Source: Burkholderiales bacterium
Lineage (GTDB): Bacteria; Pseudomonadota; Gammaproteobacteria; Burkholderiales; Burkholderiaceae_C
Direction: 5' to 3'
Length of the DNA stretch: 64,000 bases
Assembly (NCBI GenBank): GCA_016000265.1
Contig: JAECRL010000005.1
Coordinates: 1 to 64,000, forward strand
Part shown: in pieces, positions 31,850 through 46,802 of the stretch
Layout: the number at the start of each line of letters is the position of its first letter
Numbering within the stretch: position 1 is the first letter of the stretch
Program-made: the position numbers and the translations under genes
The notes under the pieces: model-generated
The model's input: only the letters and a program-made list of their open reading frames with translations
What the model was told of the DNA's origin: nothing
Databases searched by the model: none

Positions 31850-33940
31850 TCAACCGTCTGCCGCGCCAGGCCCTTGGGTTTCCTGGTGCCACAAGGCTTG
31901 TGACAGGCGATCGATGGCCATGCGGAGTTGGTAGCGGTAGGTCCCGAAAGGCAGTCCCAGCCGCTCGGCTGCGAGTTCTTGCGAGCCCGCGGGGCGCCAG
32001 TAGGTCAGCTCGATGGTCTTGAGGAACTTGGCGTGGCGGGGGTGATTCGCCAGGCGGTCCCCAGCGGCCGTGATCAGCCTGCGCAAGGTGGTTGCGGCCT
32101 CCTCGGCAGGCAGGCGGGTGGTGTGAACCAAACCGCTTTGCAGCAAAGGGTTGCGGCCCAGTTCGAGCGGGTCCTGCCACCGCTTCAACGCATCCTGGAC
32201 GGCCTCTTTGAAGCGCTGCTCGGTCAGCACCTGCACGGTCAGGCCGATTTCGGTTGCAGGCCTGGATTGACCCACTGGCACCTGGCTGGCGCCCAGCTTG
32301 TTGAGCCACAAGTTCATGGGCACGGCCCGCCAGTCGTGCGCGAAGGTGCCGTGGTGCTGGTTGTCCATGTCGACACCCTTGGGCTCGATCAGGTGGAAGT
32401 CGATGTGGCTCATCATGGGCACCCAGTGGTCAGGGTCCTTGTTGCACAGGGCGAATAATGCCAATGCGGGCTCGGTCATCCACATCAGGAAGGTGCGGGT
32501 CTGCAGTGCATTGATGTAGACCCCGTCGTTGGTCACGCCATTGCGCGTCACGGCCATGCGGGAACACAGCACCCGTTCGCCGGGGCGAAGCGTGGGTTGC
32601 CGTGCCACCCAGTCCAGCAGTTGGGTCAGCATCGGGTCGCCGCAGAGGTCTTGCGGTGACATGGCGCTGAGGTCCAGTAGCAGCATCGCGGTCATGATGC
32701 GCCCGTTTGGTTCGCGCACCACCCACCAGCCCGCAGCAGGGTGATTCAACCAGCGTTGCATCAGCGCTTCGTGCTCGCTTCCCAGCTCTTGCAGAACCAG
32801 TTCGGCGATCACCGGCAGGTCTTTGAGGTGCGCCCGATCGCAATGCACCGACCCCAGCGCGGCGAAGTCGATGAAGGCTTGCATGACGGGATGGCCGCGG
32901 TTCAGGTAGACGATGTCGAGCGCGCCCCTTTGACGCAAGGCAGGGCCGCCGCTGTGCACTTGCTGCACATGGTGTTTGAGCAAGCGCTCGCTGGTTTGCG
33001 TCAGTTTCTGCGGGTTGCGCCAGCGCATCTCCGAGGTGATCGCATCACGCACGAGGTCGTGTGGAAAGAGCCCGTCGGGCGCCGTCTCCATGAAACTGAG
33101 TGAGGCGAGCCATTCGAACAACTCGGCTGCACGAGCGGCGTCCACCAAGGCCAGCAGGTCTTCCGTGGTGACGCGGGCCAGTGCAGACAATTCCAGGGCC
33201 TCGCGGTGCAGCGGGCAGGGCGTCTGCGAAGCGAAGCAGTCGGTCAGCTTGCGGATGAGGTCCGTGTCCAGTGCCTCAGGCACCTTGCCCTTTGCCTTGA
33301 CCAAATCGGCCAGGAGCATCATGGCCAGGGGGTGCCCATGGCTGAGTTTGGTGATGGCCAGCCTTTGAGGCGGAGGCAGCTCCCGGGCGATGAGGGCTTG
33401 CTCGCACGCTTGCGTAGGCAGGTTGCGAAGGCCGATCACGTGGCTGCCGTGTCGCCAGACTGGGTCGGTGAGCCAGAGATCGGTGGGGGTGTCGCGCCCT
33501 GCCAGGATGACCAAGCTCTGCTGTGGCAACTCGGCCAGCACCTCATCCCGCAACCACAGGCTCAGGTGACGCAGGTGCTCGAAGGTGTCGATGACCAGCA
33601 GACGCCTGGGCTGGCTTCGCCAGGCCTGCAGGATGTGCTCGAGCTGCGCTTGCTCGGCGCCCAGCCTCAGGTGCGAAGCGAGTCCTTGCAACACGCCGTA
33701 GATCGAGGGCTCGATGCTGCGGCCATCGAGCTGTACCACATCGAGTCCCGCCTGGTGCGCGAGCTCCCGCATCCTCTCCAACAGGGCAGTTTTGCCGATG
33801 CCGCCGGGGCCATGCAGCAGGAAGACACTGACCTGCGGCACCTCTTCCGACAGGCTCTGTTGAAAGCGCAGCAGCTCGGTTTCGCGGCCAAAGAAGTTGG
33901 CCTGGCTTCGCTGGCGAAGGCGATCAACGATGCGAACCAT
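31850..33940 (-). CDS. STAND-type ATPase with C-terminal helix-turn-helix, probable transcriptional regulator
   Basis: A 696-residue protein. An AAA_16/STAND module starts with FFGRETELLRFQ (about 16-27), Walker A LHGPGGIGKTALL (about 42-54) and Walker B LLVIDTFEHL (about 114-123), with a winged-helix-like half following. The middle (about 370-600) contains a segment DLPVIAELVLQELGSE...GWWVVREPNGRI that resembles a degenerate GNAT domain. The last 60 residues have QELAAERLGLPFGTYRYQL, like a sigma region 4/LuxR helix-turn-helix. Such proteins are signal-gated transcription factors. No sensor ligand can be named. It is divergent from the thrS leader and lies upstream of the esterase gene. Confidence 0.72.
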   Translation of the reverse strand: MVRIVDRLRQRSQANFFGRETELLRFQQSLSEEVPQVSVFLLHGPGGIGKTALLERMRELAHQAGLDVVQLDGRSIEPSIYGVLQGLASHLRLGAEQAQLEHILQAWRSQPRRLLVIDTFEHLRHLSLWLRDEVLAELPQQSLVILAGRDTPTDLWLTDPVWRHGSHVIGLRNLPTQACEQALIARELPPPQRLAITKLSHGHPLAMMLLADLVKAKGKVPEALDTDLIRKLTDCFASQTPCPLHREALELSALARVTTEDLLALVDAARAAELFEWLASLSFMETAPDGLFPHDLVRDAITSEMRWRNPQKLTQTSERLLKHHVQQVHSGGPALRQRGALDIVYLNRGHPVMQAFIDFAALGSVHCDRAHLKDLPVIAELVLQELGSEHEALMQRWLNHPAAGWWVVREPNGRIMTAMLLLDLSAMSPQDLCGDPMLTQLLDWVARQPTLRPGERVLCSRMAVTRNGVTNDGVYINALQTRTFLMWMTEPALALFALCNKDPDHWVPMMSHIDFHLIEPKGVDMDNQHHGTFAHDWRAVPMNLWLNKLGASQVPVGQSRPATEIGLTVQVLTEQRFKEAVQDALKRWQDPLELGRNPLLQSGLVHTTRLPAEEAATTLRRLITAAGDRLANHPRHAKFLKTIELTYWRPAGSQELAAERLGLPFGTYRYQLRMAIDRLSQALWHQETQGPGAADG

Positions 33941-34048
33941 GACGTGGAGGTGAAAAACGATGAAAAAGCCTAGCAGAACGGTGTCCGATGTCTCGACCCC
34001 GCAACCCAGGTGTCGACCCGCCAGTGCACCATGCTGTGGGCTGCAAGA

Positions 34049-34054
34049 TACAAT
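34049..34054 (+). promoter_or_regulatory. Candidate -10 element for the thrS leader
   Basis: TACAAT (5/6 to consensus) lies about 73 nt upstream of the leader ORF. No convincing -35 hexamer is at 16-18 nt, so an activator or a poor promoter is implied. The 370-nt gap 33941-34310 is otherwise occupied by the leader ORF and attenuator described next. Confidence 0.35.
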
Positions 34055-34126
34055 GGCGGCCCATCGTTGAATCAGCGATGTGACCCAACCCAGGCAAGGT
34101 AAGAACCGAGAAAGGCACGCACGGTT

Positions 34127-34174
34127 ATGACACCGCGAACTCCGACCAACTCCTGCACCTCGACCGAGGTGTAG
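34127..34174 (+). CDS. Threonine-rich leader peptide of thrS (15 residues)
   Basis: ATG 34127 to TAG 34172-34174 encodes [15 protein letters not shown]. Five of 15 residues are Thr (codons ACA, ACT and three ACC), at positions 2, 5, 7, 11 and 13. AAAGG lies 11 nt upstream as a possible Shine-Dalgarno. The ORF sits upstream of a strong terminator and of the threonyl-tRNA synthetase gene. This is the layout of amino-acid-specific leader peptides, whose translation senses the supply of the cognate charged tRNA. Stalling at Thr codons 11 or 13 would hold the ribosome on the leader hairpin. The peptide itself probably has no other function. The assignment is from sequence only. Confidence 0.75.
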
Positions 34175-34244
34175 ACGGCTGTCCGCTGCTTTCGCACTCC
34201 TGACCTTGACTCACCAGAAAGCGCGGCGCCCCCCGCGCTTTTTT
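34153..34244 (+). promoter_or_regulatory. thrS transcription attenuator (leader hairpin, antiterminator, terminator)
   Basis: Three competing structures can be drawn. (1) A leader hairpin, 34153-34161 with 34166-34174 (9 bp, GACC loop), covers the last Thr codons and the stop. (2) An antiterminator pairs CCGCTGCTTTC (34183-34193) with GAAAGCGCGG (34217-34226): 10 bp with one bulged T. (3) The terminator (34218-34241) shares the 34218-34226 arm. A ribosome at the stop codon would cover the start of 34183-34193 and let the terminator form. A ribosome stalled at Thr codons would leave it free and allow readthrough. This matches ribosome-mediated attenuation as known for trp, his and thr operons; here the regulated gene is thrS. 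Confidence 0.72.
34218..34244 (+). terminator. Intrinsic terminator upstream of thrS
   Basis: AAAGCGCGG (34218-34226), 6-nt loop, CCGCGCTTT (34233-34241), with six T at 34239-34244. The 9-bp stem is perfect. It lies only 67 nt before the thrS start, between the leader ORF and the gene it would block. Confidence 0.9.
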
Positions 34245-34310
34245 GTTGTCTGCACAGTTGACGCTCCCTTGCAGATTGCTTTCACAGACCCGAACACACA
34301 GGCAGAAAAC

Positions 34311-36230
34311 ATGATCTCCATCCAGTTGCCCGACGGCTCCAAGCGTGAATTCCCCGGCCCTGTGACGGTGGCCGAAGTGGCCGCATCCATCGGCGCGGGC
34401 CTGGCCAAAGCCGCCTTGGCTGGCCGAGTGGGGCAGGGCGCCGCGGCCCGGCTGGTCGACACCAGCCACCGCATCGAGGCCGACGAGCACCTGGCCATCG
34501 TCACCGAAAAGGACGAAGCCGGCCTGGACATCATCCGCCACTCGACGGCCCACCTGCTGGCCTATGCCGTCAAGGAGCTGTTCCCCGAGGCGCAGGTCAC
34601 CATCGGCCCGACCATCGAAGACGGCTTTTACTACGACTTCGCCTACAAGCGCCCCTTCACGCCCGAAGACTTGGCTGCCATCGAAAAGAAGATGGGCGAG
34701 CTGGCCAAGAAGGACGAAAAGGTCGAGCGCCGTGTGCTGCCGCGCGACGATGCCGTGACCTACTTCAAGGGCCTGGGCGAGCATTACAAGGCGGAGATCA
34801 TCGAGAGCATCCCGGCCGATCAGGACGTGTCGCTCTACAGTGAGGGCGCCTTCACCGACCTGTGCCGTGGGCCGCACGTGCCCAGCACTGGCAAGCTCAA
34901 GCACTTCAAGCTCATGAAGGTGGCGGGCGCCTACTGGCGTGGCGACCACCGCAACGAGCAGTTGCAGCGCGTCTACGGCACGGCCTGGACTACCAAGGAT
35001 GACCTGCAGCAGTACCTGACCCGCCTGGAAGAGGCTGAGAAGCGCGACCACCGCAAGCTGGGCCGTGAGCTCGATTTGTTCCACATCGATGACCACGCCC
35101 CGGGCGTGGTGTTCTGGCACCCCAAGGGCTGGGCGGTGTGGCAGGCCGTGGAGCAGTACATGCGTCAGGTCTACCGCGACAACGGCTACCAGGAGGTCAA
35201 GGGCCCGCAGATCATCGACAAGACGCTGTGGGAGAAGACCGGGCACTGGGACAAGTACCGCGAGAACATGTTCACCACCGAGTCGGAGAAGCGCGACTAC
35301 GCGCTCAAGCCGATGAACTGCCCTGGCCACATCCTGATCTTCAACCAAGGCATCAAGAGCTACCGCGACCTGCCGGTGCGCTTTGGTGAATTCGGCCAGT
35401 GCCATCGCAACGAGCCCTCAGGCGGCCTGCACGGCATCATGCGCGTGCGCGGCTTCACGCAAGACGACGGTCACGTCTTCTGCACCGAGGATCAGATCCT
35501 GCAGGAGTGCGTGGACTTCACGGCGCTGCTGCAGAAGGTCTACGCCGATTTCGGCTTCACCGACATCATCTACAAGGTGGCCACGCGCCCCGAGAAGCGC
35601 ATCGGCTCCGATGAAGTGTGGGACAAGGCCGAGCAGGCCCTGATGGCCTCGCTGCGCGCCACGAACAGCGACTTCACCATCGCGGTGGGGGATGGTGCCT
35701 TCTACGGCCCCAAGATCGAGTACACGCTGAAAGACGCGCTGGGCCGCCACTGGCAGTGCGGCACCATCCAGGTCGACTTCTCCATGCCCGAGCGACTGGG
35801 GGCGGAGTACGTCACCGAAACCAGCGATCGCAAGCACCCGGTCATGTTGCACCGCGCCATCCTGGGCTCGCTGGAGCGCTTCATCGGCATCCTGATCGAG
35901 CAGCACGCGGGCGCCTTGCCCGTGTGGCTGGCCCCCGTGCAGGCGGTGGTGCTCAACATCACCGATGCGCAGGCGGACTACGCCCGCGAGGTGGCTGATG
36001 CCCTGCAGAAGGCCGGCATCCGCACGAAGCTGGACCTGCGCAACGAGAAGATCACCTACAAAATCCGCGAGCACGCGCTGCAAAAGGTGCCGTACTTCAT
36101 CGTGCTGGGTGACAAGGAAAAGGAAGCGGGCGCAGTCGCCGTGCGCGCGCGCGGCAACCAGGACCTGGGCGTGATGCCGCTGAATCAGCTCGTTGAGGTG
36201 ATCCAGCAGGCCGTGGCTGACAAGCGCTGA
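34311..36230 (+). CDS. thrS: Threonyl-tRNA synthetase
   Basis: A 639-residue class II ThrRS. It has an N-terminal TGS domain (about 1-60, [15 protein letters not shown]), the editing domain with [11 protein letters not shown] (about 75) and a HxxxH-type site, then the catalytic core with motif 2 [12 protein letters not shown] (about 364-375) and motif 3 near 505-520 ([14 protein letters not shown]). The anticodon-binding domain is about 535-639. The start is ATG 34311; an ORF opening at 34206 reads through the terminator hairpin and is not conserved. It is preceded by a Thr-rich leader ORF and attenuator. Downstream, infC is not adjacent as usual: a kinase gene on the opposite strand intervenes, with 12 nt between the two stops. 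Confidence 0.97.
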
Positions 36231-36242
36231 GCGCCTGTCGGG

Positions 36243-39230
36243 TCAAGCCTGCCCGGTCGGTGGGGCGGGCTGCTGCAGCCATTGCAGCAGCTTGCCGGCC
36301 AGCATCGCGGGCTCAAAAGGCTTGGGCAGGTGATCGTTCATGCCCGCGTCGAGGCAACGTTGCCGGTCGTCGGTCGATGCGTTGGCCGTCATCGCGAGGA
36401 TGGGCAGGTCGCGGTGTGCCGGCGTGGCGCGGATGCGTCGCGTGGCTTCGAGCCCGTCCATCTTGGGCATCTGCATGTCCATGAGCACCAGGTCTGGCTG
36501 TCGTGCCTGCACCAGCTCCACCGCCTGCTCGCCATCGGTGGCCACCAGCACCTGCAAGCCCATGATTGTGAGCAGCTCGGTCGCCAGCTCGCGGTTGAGC
36601 TCGTTGTCTTCCGCCAGCAGGACGACCTTCCCGTGGATGCGCTGGGTGTCTGGCAGGCGGCTGGCTGCGCCCCATGTCGCGGCCGCCGCGGGCTTCGTCG
36701 CGGCGATGGCCGGCTCCCGCTGCTCGTTGAACTCGCTCACCTGGGCTGTGAACCAGAAGGTCGAGCCCACGCCGGGCGCGCTGTCCACCCCGATGGCGCC
36801 CCCCATCAGCTCCGTCAGGCGCCGTGAGATCGCCAGGCCCAGTCCGGTTCCACCGAAGCGACGTGTCGTTGTGCTGTCGGCTTGCTGGAAACTCTGAAAC
36901 AGGCGCGACTGCTGCGCCGCACTCAGCCCGATGCCGGTGTCCTGCACCTCGATGCGCAAGGTCCACGTGTCGCCGAGGTGGCGCTGCGCGCTCATGCGGA
37001 TGTCGATGCGACCTTGCTCGGTGAATTTCAGTGCGTTGCCGCCGAGGTTCAGCAGCACCTGCCCGATGCGCAGCGGGTCTCCCACCAGCTGCTCGGGCAC
37101 GTCGGGCTCGACGTGGAGCTCAAACGCCAGTCCCTTGGCCAGGGCTCGATCCGACAGCGTCCAGGCGACCTGGTCCAGCAGGCGCCGCACATCGAAGGCG
37201 TGGTGCTCGATGTCCATCTTGCCGGCTTCGATCTTGGAGAAGTCCAGGATGTCGTTGAGGGTGGCCAGCAAAAGCTGACCGGCGCCCTCGATCTTGTCGA
37301 GATGACTGCGTTGCCGCCCCGTGAGTTCCGTGTGTTGCAGCAGCGCCGTCATGCCGATGATGGCGTTGAGTGGCGTGCGGATTTCGTGGCTCATCGTGGC
37401 CAGGAAGCTGCTCTTGGCGGCGTTGGCGGCTTCGGCTTGCTCCTTGGCGCGCTTGAGTGGGGTGATGTCTTGCAGGCTGATGATCAGGCCGTCTCCCAGC
37501 ACCTGCGCTCCGATCAGCACGTCCAGTTGCGTGCCGTGCCCCGTGTGGACTCGGTACTCACGGGCGCGCACGACGCCATGAGCCTGGCGCGCCTCGGCGA
37601 TGTCGGCGGCCCAGGTTTGCTCCACCCAGGCGCGGTAAACGGGGTCGGGGTAGGCCTGGGAGAACCAGGCGCTCGGGTCGCGGATGTCCGATGCATCCAG
37701 GCCCATCAACGACAGGTAGCACCGGTTCACCGACTCAACGACCGGGCCCCTCTGGTAGGCCATCGCCACTGGAGCGACGTCGAACAGCGAGCGAAAGAGT
37801 CGGTCCCGCTCGGCCGTGGCTTCGGCGATGCGCGCGCGTTCGGCCTGTTCTTCGGCCTCGATGCGCTGCGTCACCTCCCTGGACAACATCAGCACCTTGC
37901 CGCCCGGCTTGCGCGTTTTGCGGGTCGTGGACAGCTCGAACCAGCGCCTTTGCCCCCCGGCCTCAACCGAGATGCAGCGCCCGAAGTCGCCCCCGGTCTC
38001 CAGCGCTTGGGCGATGGAGTGCATCACCGTCTGCGCCGACTCTGGCGGCAAAATGTCCGTGACGACCTGTCCCAGCAGCCGGTCGCGCTCGATCACCTGA
38101 GGGCTGCACTCGTTGGCGAACACGTTCAGGTAGCGCCCTTCGGCGTCGAACTCGACCAGGCGATCGGGGATGGCCGCCAGCGTGGCAGCCAGGTCCGCGC
38201 GGGTTTGCTCGGTCTCTTCGTGCGCGGCGTTGAGCTCGCTGAGCGCTTCGTTCAGCGCAGCCGTTCTCGCCGCCACCCTGCGGCGCAGCTGAACGTTCCA
38301 CAGCAGCAACAAGGTGCCGCCGCACAGCAGCGCGCCGGCACTCCACCACACCATGGGGGGCACGGGGTGCGGGCCCTCGGGCCGCCCCAGCCACTTCGCC
38401 TGCAGGGCCTTGAGTTCTGCCTCGGGGATCGCTCGCATGCCGTCTTCGACTTGCCTCAAGGTGGCCGCGTTGCCTTTGCGCACCGCCCGATGAGCCTGTC
38501 CCGTGTAGAGCACGAAGGCCTGCTGGAACGACGCGCCAGCCCCCAGTTTGTAGAGGTAAAAATGCGCCGGCCCCTCATCCAGGCAGAACACCTTGATCTC
38601 CTGGCGTTGCGCGGCCTTGATCAGCGCCTCGTAGTTGGGGTGGTTCACCAACGTGGTGATGCCGGCGGCGCGCAGTTGATCGGCGCAGGCGTCACCGGCC
38701 TGCACGCCGATCTGAAAACCTTTGAGCGTGGCGGTGCTGCGGATGCCGTTGATGTCGACGTGGCTGTAGATGCCCACCGGCATGTCGGCATAGGGGCTGG
38801 AGAACTCGTAGGTGGATTCGCGGGGTGGGGTCCTGTAAATCAGGTCGATCACATCGGCCTGGCCCGCCAGCAGCGCTTGCTGGGCAGCAGCCCAATTCAG
38901 GGCCTTGAACTCGACGGGCACGCCGGTGTGACGCGACCACAGTTGCCACAGCTCGACGAGGTATCCCTCGGCGCCACCGTCGTCATTGAGGAAGACATAA
39001 GGGGGGAAATTGGCGTCCGTCACGACGCGCAGGGCTTGAGGCGGAGCGGTGTTCGGTGGCGTCGCCGCGATCGCGCCTGGATGGGACACCCAGGCGGCGA
39101 GGAGTGCGCACAGCAGGGCCCCGGCGACACTCAGCCAGCCGCGTGTTGGGGCGATTGGGCCGTGTGTGGGGGTCAATTGACCTGCTGCTCCAAGGTGAGG
39201 TGAGGCGCGGTGCCGCCCGGTTGCGTCCAT
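36243..39230 (-). CDS. Hybrid sensor histidine kinase with periplasmic solute-binding domain (BvgS-like)
   Basis: A 995-residue hybrid kinase. A signal/anchor segment near residues 30-55 is followed by a family 3 extracellular solute-binding domain (about 62-290: [37 protein letters not shown]), a membrane helix (about 305-325), two PAS domains, HisKA with His about 613 in [18 protein letters not shown], an HATPase ([21 protein letters not shown]) and a C-terminal receiver with Asp about 917 in [13 protein letters not shown]. It probably senses an amino acid or similar solute. No Hpt domain or output regulator is adjacent. ATG 39230 is preferred over an upstream TTG at 39275; no clear Shine-Dalgarno supports either. 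It lies inside the thrS-infC junction on the opposite strand. Confidence 0.9.
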
Positions 39231-39267
39231 TTGACAGCAGAAACAAGGACTTAGGTTTGCGTTGGGT

Positions 39268-39296
39268 TTGCGCAACGTCCGCTTCGGGTGTAAACT
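39268..39296 (+). promoter_or_regulatory. Candidate promoter for infC-rpmI-rplT
   Basis: TTGCGC (39268-39273), 17 nt, TAAACT (39291-39296). It lies about 275 nt upstream of infC. A local promoter is needed because the hybrid kinase gene separates infC from thrS. The rest of the 343-nt gap 39231-39573 shows no supportable ORF or terminator. Confidence 0.4.
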
Positions 39297-41052: not shown

Positions 41053-41082
41053 AAAGGCCAACCCTGTGTTGGCCTTTTTTTT
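41053..41082 (+). terminator. Intrinsic terminator/attenuator between rplT and pheS
   Basis: AAAGGCCAAC (41053-41062), loop CCTGT, GTTGGCCTTT (41068-41077), with eight T at 41075-41082. It ends 12 nt before the pheS start codon, leaving no room for a separate promoter, so pheS must be reached by readthrough. Upstream are two more hairpins (41001-41014 and 41014-41038) and a 13-residue ORF at 41008-41049 with no Phe codon. Confidence 0.9.

Positions 41083-46724: not shown

Positions 46725-46802
<78 letters not shown>

Follow-up and report, generated by a model that had tools for sequence, protein, structure and literature searches.

A probable ribosome-mediated transcription attenuator upstream of thrS in Burkholderiales

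The region preceding the threonyl-tRNA synthetase gene in the 64,000-nucleotide stretch of DNA analyzed here (the window) and in many of its relatives very probably encodes a ribosome-mediated transcription attenuator, as judged from sequence comparison. The comparison shows a translated frame enriched in Thr codons, a conserved terminator and a coevolving antiterminator whose arm lies at the leader stop codon; such a combination of a translated ORF, cognate codons, a terminator and an alternative antiterminator is what characterizes the leader-peptide attenuators.

In the proposed mechanism, the leader would be translated by a ribosome trailing the RNA polymerase. When charged tRNA-Thr is ample, the ribosome would reach the stop codon and mask the antiterminator arm starting there, allowing the terminator to form and transcription to stop near position 34244. 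When charged tRNA-Thr is scarce, the ribosome would stall at the upstream Thr codons and leave the arm free to capture the terminator's 5′ side, permitting transcription of thrS. We infer the ribosome stall, the response to tRNA-Thr charging and the direction of control.

The thrS locus in the window

The original prediction, a 15-codon leader with five Thr codons followed by a perfect terminator with six T residues 67 nt before thrS, was borne out. The leader ORF (34127–34174, plus strand, as are all features of the element) starts with ATG at 34127, ends with TAG at 34172–34174 and has Thr at positions 2, 5, 7, 11 and 13. It is preceded by the Shine–Dalgarno-like GAAAGG (34110–34115), which occupies conserved columns in the alignment of relatives, A1. 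A full sigma-70 consensus promoter was not found in 33940–34330; a candidate −10 box of the putative leader promoter, TACAAT (34049–34054), lies 78 nt before the ATG. Of 149 leaders, 107 have a TANAAT box upstream, as against a mean of 4.8 and a maximum of 10 after shuffling, and in 59 of these 107 it was located 48–51 nt before the ATG.

The intrinsic terminator (34216–34244) consists of a stem of 34216–34226 with 34233–34243 and six T residues ending at 34244, which leaves 67 nt to the ATG of the next gene at 34311. Two terminator-like sites, overlapping each other, were found, against 0.3 expected by chance, and the leader RNA (34100–34247) folded more stably than 198 of its 200 dinucleotide-shuffled versions. 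The gene downstream (34311–36230), taken for thrS from the beginning, was confirmed as threonine--tRNA ligase by its ORF and NCBIfam TIGR00418 (E 5.7e-221, 735 bits vs. the cut-off of 384).

Of 110 loci, 108 have infC in the downstream flank of thrS; the exceptions are the window and locus L015, which is cut by a contig end. In the window, the space between thrS and infC is occupied by a minus-strand gene (36243–39275) resembling a hybrid sensor histidine kinase, with NCBIfam matches below the curated cut-offs. Farther downstream, a hairpin with eight consecutive T residues (41053–41082) lies between rplT and pheS (the latter assigned by TIGR00468); inspection by eye revealed no Phe-rich leader ORF before it.

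Translation of the leader and coevolution of the antiterminator

Of 227 regions, the 154 that are distinct and bear the core supplied the codon and coevolution statistics; since 118 of the 227 had been found with R1, a covariance model of the leader element built from relatives, the set leans to the consensus. In the comparison that the original prediction had called for, the leader frame and its Thr codons proved conserved in relatives. After codon 5, ACN triplets made up 326 of 1373 in-frame codons (23.7%), vs. 15 of 1219 (1.2%) and 43 of 1219 (3.5%) in the other two frames, and base shuffles gave a mean of 102 and a maximum of 134 in 1000 trials. The first stop lay 33–66 nt from the ATG in 149 of 154 leaders in frame and in only 9 and 21 of 154 in the other frames. 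The leaders carried two (15 leaders), three (31), four (54), five (33), six (17) or seven (4) Thr codons; those with just two had Thr2 and Thr5, and codon 6 encoded Thr in 109 of 154. Beyond the core, Thr was encoded mostly by the common codons ACC (160) and ACG (87), followed by ACA (44) and ACT (35). The Shine–Dalgarno sequence was also conserved across A1. Altogether, these patterns indicate that the leader frame is translated and selected for Thr.

The terminator was recovered by script in 152 of the 154 leaders (none for L017 and L249; an earlier search had likewise found none for L017). Five of the ten terminator stem pairs had changed on both sides, a value reached by 0 of 500 shuffles. 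In alignment A1 the stems were picked by script with pairing required, a procedure that favours pair counts. A1 contained 63 of 65 references, L069 being omitted as the script had taken a distant terminator, and L098 having been left out needlessly.

The antiterminator proposed earlier, 34183–34193 with 34217–34226, exists within a wider best duplex of 34178–34193 with 34217–34229 (−16.3 kcal/mol), formed between the antiterminator arm (strand 2, 34178–34195) and the 5′ side of the terminator (strand 3). Across the relatives, pairing of the arm started at a median distance of 3 nt, counted from the stop codon's first base, and in 139 of 152 leaders within −15 to +20 nt of that base. When arms and terminator 5′ arms were swapped between leaders, 0 of 10,000 permutations reached the matched value; an earlier swap test on 64 leaders (without L069 and L089) had given 17 of 5000. 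The effect is small, −15.80 kcal/mol for the matched vs. −15.16 for all pairs (a difference of 0.64), with kinship handled solely via a control region taken from upstream of the leader, which fitted its own terminator no better than others (the matched value was equalled or bettered in 4822 of 5000 permutations). In single sequences the pairing of strands 2 and 3 was often unremarkable: p ≤ 0.05 was obtained in 14 of 64 leaders (window p = 0.075) and, with a shorter arm, in 22 of 65 (window p = 0.345). The swap tests thus support coevolution between the arm that starts at the leader stop and the 5′ arm of the terminator.

Folding of the window RNA was modelled with an assumed ribosome footprint of 12 nt past the A-site codon. 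Before the 3′ arm was made, a ribosome at the stop left −7.0 kcal/mol of structure, one on Thr13 left −14.7, one on Thr11 or Thr7 left −18.3, and one on Thr5 left −30.1, the 9-bp hairpin being included in the last value. The antiterminator arm was lost solely with the ribosome at the stop. The completed RNA adopted the terminator fold in all six modelled ribosome states, hence the switch must be kinetic, with timing deciding the outcome. The geometry first proposed, masking by a ribosome at the stop vs. stalling at Thr13 or Thr11, fits these folds under the assumed footprint, but the Thr codons common to relatives are 2, 5 and usually 6. Similarly, the 9-bp hairpin noted over the last leader codons and the stop is present (34153–34161 with 34166–34174) but does not overlap the antiterminator arm.

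The conserved core and the rival explanations

An 18-nt core, GGTTATGACACCGCGAAC (34123–34140, candidate strand 1), is near-invariant, synonymous sites included. Among the 154 leaders its codons were ACA in 153, CCG in 154, CGA in 147 and ACT in 133. R1 played no part in choosing A1, where the free synonymous sites were also near-constant (ACA 63/63, CCG 63/63, CGA 60/63). Three of these codons are rare in five long ORFs of the window, where ACA accounts for 7 and ACT for 5 of 163 Thr codons, and CGA for 11 of 208 Arg codons.

In trp-type leaders, pairing of strands 1 and 2 acts as the anti-antiterminator. Core-to-arm pairing was predicted in 111 of 152 folds, vs. 57–76 with the core shuffled, 45–67 with the arm shuffled and 25–47 with everything downstream shuffled. 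These position-specific counts weakened our earlier reading of a default-on switch devoid of an anti-antiterminator. In the window, the pairing is weak (34135–34139 with 34191–34195, −6.7 kcal/mol); by duplex energy, core-to-downstream pairing stood out in only 3 of 65 leaders, and in the swap test 2360 of 10,000 permutations reached the matched value, a test that is weak here since the core hardly varies. The excess could be a by-product of the arm matching strand 3, which resembles the core. On the modelled folds, the core–arm pairing, though weaker, appears to be a better candidate for the anti-antiterminator than the 9-bp hairpin. Arm pairing, the initiation site and codon choice may contribute together to core conservation. 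It is conceivable, if rather doubtful, that the core plays a triple role as the leader initiation site, the sensor codons (rare ACA and ACU) and the anti-antiterminator strand. If so, leader initiation itself would open the switch, codon, peptide and RNA pairing would be locked together, and this would explain why, throughout the order, the core stays constant in an otherwise drifting leader.

Two other ideas about the core were abandoned. It is not a repeated DNA motif, as the genome has a single copy even with up to 3 mismatches allowed, and the idea of a GGU:ACC mini-hairpin at the start codon was given up, since no compensating change accompanies the CGTT variants.

Three rival explanations were weighed against attenuation by tRNA-Thr charging. 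The leader might be translated and the terminator real, with the switch sensing how fast translation runs in general, or pausing at the rare-codon core. The conserved synonymous sites of the core, despite the rarity of ACA, ACT and CGA in the window ORFs, and the 15 leaders with Thr2 and Thr5 alone would agree with this explanation; we nevertheless consider it unlikely, as Thr is enriched beyond the core mostly in common codons, and Arg4 varies to Leu or Pro in some families (L268, L277, L280) while Thr5 (ACT) stays. Even less probable is binding of ThrRS to the leader RNA with repression in the E. coli manner and only a secondary role for the leader ORF. Translation is required by the frame and Thr statistics, and near the thrS start, where an E. 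coli-type operator would have tRNA-like hairpins, a single fold of 34245–34345 was at least equalled by 193 of 200 shuffles.

The terminator could also merely end an upstream transcript such as that of tRNA-Val, the ORF being incidental. A tRNA-Val(GAC) gene does lie upstream of thrS in 32 of 60 hand-picked loci (one on the opposite strand), so that in those lineages the tRNA transcript, too, may be ended by the attenuator. The window, however, contains a single tRNA gene, at 46726, and the long ORF upstream of the thrS leader (31850–33940, without an NCBIfam match) is on the minus strand, and hence the terminator is most likely a part of the thrS transcript. With selection on the frame and Thr codons and the coevolution of the arm also speaking against it, this explanation appears the least credible of the three, and control of thrS by leader translation remains the preferred reading.

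Known RNA families gave no better identity. The sequence ACCGCG resembles the T-box motif, but this likeness was dropped, as the position preceding GGTT holds T in 36 of 63 rows and C in another 24, and no Rfam match was obtained. T-box RF00230 was absent at the gathering threshold from the window and 16 relatives and, up to E 10, from 34040–34330; the Thr operon leader RF00506 was likewise absent at gathering from the window and 16 relatives, and from 34040–34330. A match to RF02869 ncS025 (15.8 bits vs. the gathering value of 46) was taken as chance; we infer that this family and NcS25, described as a porin regulator in the excerpt of PMC10117139, are one RNA.

Distribution among relatives and comparison with known systems

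Protein similarity yielded 80 named thrS loci, with Methylibium, Roseateles, Rubrivivax and Piscinibacter among the closest, and another 30 within the family, one of them that of the window. Setting aside L027 (without a thrS start) and L082 and L083 (not thrS), a PRT-type leader was present in 68 of 109 usable upstream regions; the 68 take in the locus of the window and L089, a duplicate of L004. Core-less fetched regions contained an ORF with at least three consecutive Thr codons in 12 of 24 cases, e.g., MFKRTTTTRISR, the leader of Vogesella (L072), and MAVRTTTTHP. In L008, L011, L022, L026 and L102 no Thr leader was found while a terminator-like hairpin was kept directly before thrS; by eye, it lies just after a TAAAAT box. 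L012 has a core copy with ATA replacing the leader ATG and is apparently decaying.

In its own 3.56 Mb genome, R1 found one strong place (E 2e-26), the next best being at E 1.6e-3. In the family sample, 132 of 150 genomes matched at E 1e-4, and 122 at E 6.5e-10 or better, every one of the latter directly upstream of thrS. In the order-wide sample 166 of 300 matched at E 1e-3, many of them partially; the 48 matches below E 1e-9 were all upstream of thrS. In the class-wide sample (n = 369), the strong matches came from three genomes of the same family; the remaining ones had E > 2e-6, and thrS was present at 0 of the 27 such loci read. The element thus appears to extend to other families of the order, with no convincing member in the class sample outside the family; R1 searches over 40 genomes used stricter filters that lose weak matches, so this absence is no proof.

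Two of 120 fetched regions had no thrS. G758 (R1 E 1.4e-9) was a false match, with neither leader nor thrS, whereas in G535 (L297) a contig end cuts the region before thrS. L297 displays a tRNA-Val gene, a Thr leader (MSFRTTTTGTLNLG, read by eye), a terminator and then, up to the contig end, a sequence resembling the start of a group II intron.

Leader-peptide attenuation of synthetase genes is a known mechanism, exemplified by E. coli pheST. The T-box (RF00230) also couples tRNA charging to synthetase genes by antitermination, whereas the thrS element has a translated leader and no T-box match. The Thr operon leader (RF00506) likewise places Thr codons before a terminator, but it precedes biosynthetic genes. 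Judging from excerpts of the respective papers, leader-peptide attenuators were predicted for Streptomyces trpS and leuS (PMC1262725) and described for hisS paralogues of bacilli (PMC2965389), and an auxiliary trpS is named as having one in a title cited in PMC4787780. All these synthetase attenuators share with thrS a cognate-rich leader and a terminator before the synthetase gene; they concern another synthetase and lineage, and the thrS element has a near-invariant core around the leader start. The thr operon leader of E. coli contains eight ACC codons (PMC1183508), whereas in the thrS leader codon 2 is fixed as ACA and codon 5 as ACT. According to the argument in PMC1183508, codons are chosen for the greatest sensitivity, which does not always mean a rare codon. 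The E. coli thrS operator, where ThrRS binds its own 5′UTR (PMC8058203, in extract), serves the same gene by feedback on ThrRS supply, whereas here the evidence suggests termination tied to leader translation. For B. cenocepacia, 82 5′UTRs with short transcripts have been reported, BCAL3373 and BCAL3436 being the synthetase genes named in the excerpted text (PMC5688073). No report of a thrS attenuator in this order was found in the open-licence literature searched, although an earlier description may exist outside it, and the string MTPRT was absent from the matches listed there.

While E. coli provides the textbook case of self-repression of the thrS mRNA, the relatives studied here apparently place the same essential gene under leader-peptide attenuation. 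The element flags a short ORF likely overlooked by gene finders, and its many aligned variants offer a natural system in which to study why particular Thr codons have become fixed in what may be a charging sensor.
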